This document shows positions 2,871 to 16,663 of a DNA stretch of 64,000 nt, piece after piece. How positions within the stretch are numbered: the stretch's first letter is position 1; each line of letters begins with the position of its first letter. This DNA is from Sorex araneus (Eukaryota; Chordata; Mammalia; Eulipotyphla; Soricidae). The notes below the pieces were generated by a model that was not told where the DNA came from, did not search any database, and saw nothing but the letters and a program-made list of their open reading frames with translations. Where the stretch lies: contig NC_073302.1 in NCBI RefSeq assembly GCF_027595985.1, positions 403,618,503 to 403,682,502 on the forward strand. Direction: 5' to 3'. Position numbers and translations under genes: made by a program.

Positions 2871-3316
2871 AAGCTTCTTCACCTCAAAAGAAACAGTGAC
2901 CAAAATACAAAGACAGTCTACAGAATGGGAAAGCATATTCACCCAATACCCACCTGATAAGGGGTTGATATCAAGGATATATAAGGCACTGGTTGAACTC
3001 TACAAGAAAAAAACATCCAACCCCATCAGAAAATGGGGGTGGAAATGAACAGAAATTTTCTCAAAGAAGAAATCCGAATGGCTAAAAGACACATGAGAAA
3101 ATGCTCTACATCACTAATCATCAGGGAGATGCAGATTAAAAAAACAATGATATATCATTTCACACCACAGAGACTGGTCCACATCCAAAAGAACAAAAGC
3201 AACCGGTGTTGGCGTGGATGTGGGGAGAAAGGGATTCTCCTTCACTGCTGGTGGGAATGCTGACTGGTTCAGCCTTTCTGGAAAACATTATGGATGATTC
3301 TCAAAAAATTATAAAT

Positions 3317-10915: not shown

Positions 10916-11086
10916 AGAAAGCTCAATACCCTTTTGGCGCCGCTGCGGATCGAGCAGGATGGAAGAGCCCAGAAGAGCGCCCTTGGACTCCAAGCAGCCC
11001 ACTGAACTAATTCTGGCACGGGATCGGAGACCCCACGGCGGGCTGCGACAGTGGAAGCAGGGCATTCCCCAATTCTTTTTTTTTTA

Positions 11087-11440
11087 AGTTTTTATTAGTT
11101 TATTTATAATTAGAGAGTCATCGTGAGGGTACAGTTACTGATCCATACATCTTTGTGCTCATGTTTCCCCCATACAAAGTTCGATAACCCATCCCTTCAC
11201 CAGTGCCCATTCTCCACCACCAGTAAACCTAACATCCCTTCCCCCCTCCCCAGTCCCGTCTCCCCCCACCCCACCCTGCCACTATGGCAGGGAATTCCCC
11301 TTTGTTCTCTCTCTCTGATTAGGTGTTGTGGCTTGCAATAAAGGTGTTGAGTGGCCATTGTGTTCAGTCTCTAGTCTGTATTCGGCCTGCATCACCCTTC
11401 CCCCACATGACCTCCAACCACATCAAAATAAGTTTTTAAG
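11087..11440 (-). repeat. L1 3'-UTR-like segment of the F1 element
   Basis: The complement contains segments in the same order as the 3' UTR of the L1 at 3904-4321: 'ggccactcaacacctttatt', a run of gagagagaacaaa, a G-rich tract, 'gggcactggtgaagggatgg', and a final 'actaataaaaactt' before poly(A). Confidence 0.82.
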
Positions 11441-12498
11441 GTTGTGCCGGTGCTGGCTCTCTGAGGTTACACAGGGCTGGCTCTCTGAGGTTACTCAGGT
11501 GCTGGCTCTCGGAGGTTGCACAGGTGCTGGCTCTCGGAGGTTGCACAGGGTTGGCTCTCTGAGGTTACACAGGTGCTGGCGCTCAGAGGTTACACAGGGC
11601 TGGCTCTCTGAGGTTACTCAGGTGCTGGCTCTCTGAGGTTACACAGGGCTGGCTCTCTGAGGTTACACAGGGCTGGCTCTCTGAGGTTACACAGGGCTGG
11701 CTCTCGGAGGTTACACAGGGCTGGTTCTCTGAGGTTACACAGGGCTGGCTCTCGGAGGTTACACAGGTGCTGTCTCTCTGAGGTTACACAGGTGCTGGCT
11801 CTCTGAGGTTACACAGGTGCTGGCTCTCTGAGGTTACACAGGGCTGGCTCTCTGAGGTTACACAGGGCTGGCTCTCTGAGGTTACTCAGGTGCTGGCTCT
11901 CTGAGGTTACACAGGGCTGGCTCTCTGAGGTTACACAGGGCTGGCTCTCGGAGGTTGCACAGGTGCTGGCTCTCTGAGGTTACTCTGGTGCTGGCTCTCG
12001 GAGGTTACTCTGGTGCTGGCTCTCTGAGGTTGCACAGGGCTGGCTCTCGGAGGTTGCACAGGTGCTGGCTCTCTGAGGTTACACAGGTGCTGGCTCTCGG
12101 AGGTTACACAGGGCTGGCTCTCTGAGGTTACACAGTGCTGGCTCTCTGAGGTTACTCAGGTGCTGGCTCTCTGAGGTTAACACAGGTGCTGGCTCTCGGA
12201 GGTTACACAGGGTTGGCTCTCGGAGGTTGCACAGGTGCTGGCTCTCGGAGGTTGCACAGGGCTGGCTCTCTGAGGTTACACAGGTGCTGGCTCTCTGAGA
12301 TTACTCAGGTGCTGGCTCTCTGAGGTTACACAGGGCTGGCTCTCTGAGGTTACACAGGGCTGGCTCTCAGAGGTTGCACAGGTGCTGGCTCTCTGAGGTT
12401 ACTCTGGTGCTGGCTCTCCGAGGTTGCACAGGTGCTGGCTCTCTGAGGTTACTCAGGTGCTGGATCTCTGAGGTTACACAGGGCTGGCTCTCTGAGAG
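11441..12498 (-). repeat. VNTR of about 43 units, 24-25 bp
   Basis: The plus-strand unit is gctggctctctgaggttacacagg. Variants swap acacagg, actcagg, actctgg and gcacagg, ctctct and ctcgg, and an optional extra t before gctgg. I counted about 43 gaggtt/gagatt landmarks. There are no unique spacers. Mixed variants in blocks suggest expansion by unequal exchange or replication slippage. Confidence 0.95.
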
Positions 12499-12799
12499 AA
12501 AAGGTCGCGCGGCCGCGCTAGCAGCCGCGCGGCTCGGATCTGTCCCAGTCTTGAATCCTGGAGCCGTGTTAGTTGCTGCCCAGTGTCGCCGAGGTTCCAT
12601 CCGGAGAAGGTGTGCAGGCGGCACCTCCTCCCTCCGGCCCCCCGGTGTTGCTGGCCCCGATTCGGGTCCGGAGCATTGTCCGGGCCGCGTTGCTCACCAG
12701 AATGCCTGCCGCTTCTCTGTGGATTGTGGCATCAAGATGGCGCCGAGGGTGGGTCGAGGGCGTGACTTCCGGGGGCCGAGACCACTCAGATTTTGGGCT
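12499..12799 (-). promoter_or_regulatory. CpG-rich putative promoter of the F1 element with YY1- and ETS-like motifs
   Basis: This 300-bp block has many CpG dinucleotides (for example 'cgcgcggccgcgctagc') in otherwise AT-rich DNA. On the plus strand AAGATGGCGCC (12734-12744) resembles a YY1 site and acttccgg (about 12764-12771) is an ETS-type site in reverse. Both lie within about 70 bp of the element's 5' end. YY1 near the 5' end is a known feature of the human L1 promoter. Promoter activity here is inferred. Confidence 0.55.
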
Positions 12800-13140
12800 G
12801 GGCATTCCCCAATTCTTTTAACCTCTCTCTCTCAACCCCTTCCTCCTGAGCACAGCACAGGGTCCATGGCTTTTTGAGCACAAAATGGAGACGCCGAGCC
12901 AGCTTTCTCTAGGTTTCTCCATCTTATGAGCACCATAAAAGGGTAAAAGTTTGTAGTGATGTTATTTCTGGTTGTACTTTCCCTGGACTTTATACAGAAA
13001 CCCAAAACCTAATGTCATCTTAGCATCAGCAATATGTAATGGTTCCTTTTTAACGGGTCAGACTTTTGTGGGAGATCCTAACAAGAATAGTAAGTCTTTT
13101 GCTGAAATATTGAAGGCAATCAAAGTGGTAGCCATCTCTC

Positions 13141-13610
13141 TAGACTGAACTAAGCCATATCTCCACGCCGGCTGAGAAGAAATATCCTTCTTTCTCGGGA
13201 AGAAACGCGGCATGGCGTCAACCATAGTATGATGTCCATTAAGAAAACACAGACCTGGTGGCGTGGGAATGGGATATAAGGGGAAAAATTATGTACATGG
13301 AACAGCGGGACGCTGGTGGAATCTCGAGCCAGAGCCGATACCAGCGCAATACCTTTGGTTCCAGAAACTGCTTGCAGACACTCTACTAGACTATCAACTA
13401 AGCCAGAGCCCCACGCCGGCTGATGACAGGAAATAACCATCTTTTTTGGTGTTTTTCCCTTTGTCAGGCAGTGTGGCGATTACTAAACAGGCGTGAACTC
13501 GGTGGCGCGGGGCAAGGGGGGAAAAAAAGAAAAGTTATGTAACAAACAGCGGGACTTAATATCTCTATATTCTTAGCAATAAAGAACTATCAACCTTGGC
13601 AATAGGACTG
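13141..13610 (+). repeat. Two diverged direct repeats of about 230 bp within the F2 composite
   Basis: Both copies start with tagact, then share 'aactaagcc', 'ccacgccggctga', 'gtggcg', 'aaaattatgt'/'aaagttatgt' and 'aacagcgggac'. The same motif order appears once in the F2 copy at 59124-59772 (antisense). Confidence 0.7.
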
Positions 13611-13902
13611 TCTTTTTCTTTTTTGGGGGAAACCCCAGCAACAATAGTGAGTTATGTGTTGAAACATGGAATGTAATCAAGATAAAGCGTAAACGAAGTG
13701 AAACTTATCACTTACAAGGGCGGGGACTGGGGAGATGGGAGGGGGCGGTAGGTAGACTGGGGTGGTTGGTGATGGAATATGGGCACTGGTAAAGGGATGG
13801 GTGTTTGAGTATTGTATAACTGACATAATCCTGAGAACTATGTAACCCTCCACAAAAAAAAAAAAGTTTGGTATATCAAAAAAAAAAAAGAAAGCTCAAT
13901 AC

Positions 13903-16557: not shown

Positions 16558-16663
16558 AAAAACATGGACTGCTTCACGAACTTGCATGTCATCCTTGTGT
16601 AGGGGTCATGCTGTCTTCTCTGTTTCATTCCAATTTTAGCATATGTGTTGCCAAAGCGAGCAC
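16558..16663 (-). pseudogene. U6 spliceosomal RNA pseudogene
   Basis: The reverse complement follows U6 snRNA almost from end to end. It has the 5' start gtgctcgctttggcaacaca, then the 'ctaaaattggaatgaaacag' region, the '...atgacatgcaagttcgtgaa' segment and the 3' end 'gcagtccatgttt'. I count roughly a dozen substitutions and a small deletion near 16611. The changed ACAGAGA-region context and lack of an obvious upstream snRNA promoter argue for a retroposed copy, not a functional gene. Confidence 0.88.

Follow-up and report, generated by a model that had tools for sequence, protein, structure and literature searches.

Evidence for a young multi-copy family of VNTR composite retroposons in the shrew Sorex araneus, built on the plan of SVA and LAVA

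In the literature, retroposons assembled around a variable number of tandem repeats (VNTR) are presented as restricted to hominoid primates (PMC4432496; PMC7353768). They include SVA (SINE-R-VNTR-Alu) and, in gibbons, LAVA (L1-Alu-VNTR-Alu), PVA and FVA, and in SVA and LAVA both ends of the VNTR are formed by conserved arrays of repeat units, according to Lupan et al. (PMC4432496). A search of full-text literature, mostly outside subscription papers, gave no composites outside hominoids among the matches listed, judged from the excerpts returned, and the accessible parts of the literature on Sorex and SVA retrotransposons (PMC4476161, PMC3935097) mention no such element. Here, we analysed a 64,000-nucleotide stretch of the S. 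araneus genome (the window), in which the first-pass annotation had proposed an L1-mobilised composite with the architecture of the hominoid elements.

The element in the window lies on the minus strand at 11080-12799 (1,720 bp), enclosed by an exact 20-bp target-site duplication (TSD), GGGCATTCCCCAATTCTTTT, with its 5' copy at 12800-12819 and its 3' copy at 11060-11079. No third plus-strand occurrence of this sequence was found within the window, stretching the duplication to 23 nt brings in one mismatch, and the site reads TT/AAAA along the element strand. In 5' to 3' order on the minus strand, the element is composed of a CpG-rich 5' block of 303 bp (12497-12799), a VNTR of about 42 units of 24/25 bp (11446-12496), a short filler that forms the fixed 3' junction from VNTR to L1 tail (11423-11445), and an L1 3'-UTR-derived tail, which we call module T1, with a short poly(A) (11080-11422) of about six A, followed by the AAAA that opens the TSD. 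The 5' block has a GC content of 66%, a CpG observed/expected ratio of 0.89 and 29 CpG, and corresponds to one monomer, about 297 bp long, which many other copies carry in tandem. It includes a motif at block positions 56-69 (12731-12744, minus strand), which we take to be YY1-like, and a GC palindrome at its 3' end (12506-12531, assigned to neither strand). Tandem Repeats Finder (TRF) reports the VNTR with period 25, 42.7 copies and 90% matches at 11449-12496, and by our own parse it contains 41 complete units, of which 21 have 25 bp, 19 have 24 bp and one has 26 bp. The region is touched by 13 open reading frames of at least 40 aa. With 167 aa, the longest is on the opposite strand and extends beyond the element; Pfam gave no match for six of the longer frames. 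The perfect duplication around a 1,720-bp minus-strand element, the composite build, the approximately 43 repeat units and the lack of coding capacity claimed in the first-pass annotation are thus all borne out.

The composite is nested in an older retroposon on the plus strand, which we call X. Without the insert X measures about 1.2 kb; it is split into 10930-11059 and 12820-13888, and is flanked by its own 14-bp TSD, AGAAAGCTCAATAC, at 10916-10929 and 13889-13902. Elsewhere in the window, a U6 snRNA gene or pseudogene at 16558-16663 (minus strand) matches the whole family model with 86 bits, and is the sole Rfam match in the window at gathering score.

In order to establish whether this structure recurs, the assembly to which the window belongs (2.41 Gb, 65 contigs) was searched with both VNTR junctions. 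The best 40 of 1,169 first-look candidates for the 5' junction span it at 93-100%, and the best 40 of 1,488 for the tail junction at 97-100%; these places were selected by score and do not represent a rate. When exact patterns were counted over the whole assembly, the 5' junction was found 60 and 72 times, and the T1 tail-junction pattern, in its common form, at 83 places with up to three mismatches (64 exact), the reversed-pattern control giving none in either case. An exact 31-mer taken from the tail junction of the window occurs at three places only, since it contains a C at a position where G prevails among the copies. Merging the best-place list with the two pattern counts yielded 91 distinct 5' junctions. 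For 77 of them, a same-strand 3' module lies no more than 7 kb away (38 T1, 31 T2 and 8 T3, see below), and 14 have no recognised 3' end within that distance. Among the T1 links, two exceed 2 kb (2,790 and 5,560 bp) and could be spurious or due to nesting.

In all 22 T1 copies that were read through, block and tail are 168-1,360 bp apart, and the stretch between them can be parsed into VNTR units, with no room for ORF1 or ORF2. The annotation had named many copies sharing both junctions, each with its own target duplication and a VNTR of variable length, as what an L1-mobilised composite should display, and junctions confined to this locus, or L1 reading frames between VNTR and tail, as what would speak against it. 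Neither junction is unique and none of these 22 copies has space for the reading frames, so that the shared junctions, the varying VNTR length and the duplications found around most of the copies examined all favour that reading. The window element is a member of a multi-copy family, and not a one-off.

The variation is located in the middle of the VNTR, and its ends are fixed. One unit, AACCTCAGAGATCCAGCACCTGAGT, opens the VNTR as its first complete unit in 16 of the 22 copies, and among the 628 units parsed it is seen at no other place. At the other end, the sequence just before the T1 tail is common to 27 distinct tail heads with few changes, and the last units are largely shared. The family therefore has the conserved VNTR ends of the hominoid composites.

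The copies bear the marks of individual insertion. Among 90 loci, 22 distinct T1 copies contain both 5' block and tail within one locus, and a TSD with a score of at least 11 was found in 20 of them, against 10 of 462 mixed pairs used as control; some accepted duplications are A-rich and weak (L052, L058, L039). For T2 and T3 copies, counted over 12 loci that match two short expressions (which leave out some copies, such as L046), the corresponding values are 11 of 12 and 4 of 132. A clear TSD is missing in two T1 copies and in one T2/T3 copy. Of these 20 T1 targets, 9 read TT/AAAA, presumably an insertion site of the L1-endonuclease type, and the other 11 differ. A-tail, TSD and L1-type target site are thus found together, as in the hominoid composites, and from these hallmarks we infer that the family is mobilised by L1. 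Two of the 22 copies, L058 and L066, have common flank sequence and are probably one insertion duplicated along with its flank, that is, one pair probably due to segmental duplication. In L055, a T2 composite with no clear TSD, a coding stretch resembling Reg3/pancreatitis-associated protein (PDB match, E 1.9e-20; no Pfam match for this piece) follows after position ~2350, close behind the A-tail; it could be flank or transduction.

No fewer than three distinct 3' ends, T1, T2 and T3, stand behind one and the same backbone of 5' block and VNTR, the T2 and T3 junction patterns occurring exactly at 76 and 20 places, respectively. Positions 24-366 of the window tail (11445-11080, minus strand) are 84% identical to the L1 3' UTR of L092, and positions 23-357 are 97% identical to the 3' UTR lying directly behind an L1 ORF2 C-terminus in L073. 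This C-terminus matches the L1 ORF2p structure in the PDB (E 1.5e-35), and the L1 ORF2 end pieces gave no match in Pfam. By sequence identity, therefore, the T1 tail originates from an L1 3' UTR. T2 is an end of about 86 bp with AATAAA 18 bp ahead of the A-tail, for which no match was found in the L1 pieces examined, in X or in the window, and by analogy with the PTGR2 part of PVA it may be derived from gene sequence. T3 is another L1-like 3' end, with 73% identity to the 3' UTR of L092 and 79% to that of L073. In four loci (L034, L038, L047 and L051) T2, an A-run and then T3 follow each other within one insertion, an arrangement that resembles a 3' transduction giving rise to a sub-lineage. 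A fourth 3' end, 92% like X, stands behind the VNTR in L045.

The 5' block is not confined to the composites. We found a sister family in the same genome, type B, which unlike the composite has no VNTR and a different 3' part, of about 300 bp; it shares with the composite the 5' block, the palindrome and the ACCTTTTCT junction (133 exact junction matches), and the 3' end of X resembles its 3' part at ~73-77% identity. Of 30 block loci that were fetched, all of them best hits, 23 lead to the type B 3' part and seven to the VNTR. The block core has 489 matches in total, and the first 100 lead to the VNTR (16), to type B (35), to another monomer (21) or to other sequence (28), the type B class being assigned from 100 listed of the 133 junctions and for C1-C2 places only. 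Seven of the 28 others are VNTR copies as well, six with a 3' module 0.4-1.3 kb downstream and one at a known 5'-junction place, which leaves 21 unclassed. Many copies have additional monomers ahead of the block, and the spacing between core matches is for the most part 295-298 bp. Over 42 distinct loci, the start of the first block match falls at positions 55-110 in 24, beside or just past the YY1-like motif, and in the remaining 18 at 187-188 (seven), at position 1 (six) or elsewhere (five), these positions being alignment starts and not always element ends. Such clustering would reflect initiation within monomers, and the 5' block is probably a pol II promoter.

The palindrome of the 5' block (26 bp, GCGCGGCCGC-loop-GCGGCCGCGCG) has a DNA fold of -17.3 kcal/mol, compared with -10.75 +/- 1.82 for shuffles. 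In some type A and type B copies it is shortened or missing, in some of them exactly, and its centre is found in both orientations. Similar palindromes exist outside the block in L005 (~182), L015 (~3048), L025 (~336) and L083 (~314), those of L005 and L025 inside X-like sequence and that of L015 close to it; L025 is a copy of X with the palindrome, and the X of the window has none. As a lead only, the palindrome may be a site of module exchange.

Taking these findings together, we are confident that this is a young, multi-copy family of composite retroposons without recognisable genes, which would propagate through a pol II-made RNA copied by L1 in trans and which was put together from modules. 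The CpG-rich 5' block would most likely act as a pol II promoter, with transcription starting near the YY1-like motif within a monomer; the RNA would continue through the VNTR and be polyadenylated behind one of the several 3' modules, and the L1 machinery, supplied in trans, would then nick the target at TT/AAAA-like sites and carry out target-primed reverse transcription. As for its origin, the 5' block, which is used without VNTR in type B, may have been joined to the 24/25-bp VNTR, and the resulting backbone would then have gained its three or more 3' ends. Recent activity is suggested by the 22 T1 tails, which differ from their majority sequence by a mean non-CpG distance of 0.98% (range 0-2.9%), a value that overestimates youth and uniformity because the copies read are those most like the window, the whole family being likely more diverse. 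With such low divergence, empty sites and activity are open to testing.

A competing explanation is internal deletion: an autonomous L1 of this genome, with the 5' block as its 5' UTR, would have had its open reading frames exchanged for the VNTR. The block does occur as tandem CpG-rich monomers, as do the 5' UTRs of mouse L1, the tail is an L1 3' UTR, and the 21 unclassed contexts among the first 100 of 489 could accommodate such an L1. We examined one L1 upstream of ORF1, at C3:70.1 Mb (L091, with L092 taken as its 3' end; the ends of this one L1 were read), which has an open ORF1 frame of 351 aa and, upstream of it, two CpG-rich monomers spaced by 143 bp (2667-2931). A SINE-like repeat (~3025-3210) lies between these monomers and ORF1. 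The best match of the block in this upstream region has an E-value of 0.47, which does not support the block as the 5' UTR of this one L1, and since other, 143-bp-spaced monomers occupy that place the block is not its promoter. Against an internal-deletion origin there are also the 30 fetched block loci (best hits), every one of which leads to the VNTR or to type B and not to ORF1, and the three 3' modules behind the VNTR, one of which matches none of the L1 pieces examined. We therefore regard this origin as unlikely, although it retains more weight than the other two alternatives. The simplest of these, a single chimaera formed by template switching from an L1 tail with local expansion of a minisatellite, would fit the 90% likeness of the window's units, and both template switching and minisatellites are common; but dozens of dispersed copies have both junctions, most of those examined with their own TSDs, and this recurrence rules out a one-off deletion or chimaera to near certainty.

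A dispersed family of composites could still be related to the hominoid elements, by common descent or horizontal transfer. The module order is the same, the VNTR ends are conserved and the 3' ends vary in both. On the other side, the 5' block contains no CT-hexamer (CCCTCT/AGAGGG), Rfam gave no match for 11000-12900 at E-values up to 1, Alu likeness being judged by Rfam only, and the VNTR unit is 24/25 bp long, compared with the 30-50 bp GC-rich unit reported for SVA (PMC4432496), all of this being a comparison of features. Homology is accordingly very improbable, and the claim in the first-pass annotation that VNTR and 5' sequence are unrelated to those of SVA and LAVA gains support at the level of features rather than alignments.

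With SVA the shrew family shares a non-autonomous composite structure of 5' block, VNTR and 3' module, the TSD, the variable VNTR and the conserved end units (PMC4432496); it differs from SVA in the hexamer-free block, in unit length, and in a 3' end derived from L1 rather than SINE-R. LAVA also has L1 sequence in its 3' end, but its 3' part is U1-AluSz-U2-L1ME (PMC4432496), whereas the T1 tail of the shrew family consists of 3' UTR from an L1 of its own genome, up to the end of that UTR. A parallel to the T1, T2 and T3 modules linked to the shared 5' junction is provided by PVA and FVA, in which one 5' and VNTR backbone carries other 3' ends and PVA took up PTGR2 gene sequence, although the 5' end of the shrew family is different. 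In sum, the shrew family is built on the plan of SVA and LAVA, apparently from other parts, which suggests that the composite plan arose more than once. It is conceivable, though we hold it at somewhat less than an even chance, that it represents an independent radiation of VNTR composites converging on a CpG-rich promoter with a YY1 motif, a VNTR that is fixed at its ends but free in between, and 3' ends that can be swapped, with the palindrome, common to several element families, as a hinge for the exchange of promoter and body and the VNTR selected for L1 use. If so, it would be a second independent case, in another mammal, and a comparison of the two families could address both the role of the VNTR and whether L1 biology favours the plan of 5' block, VNTR and 3' module that they have in common.
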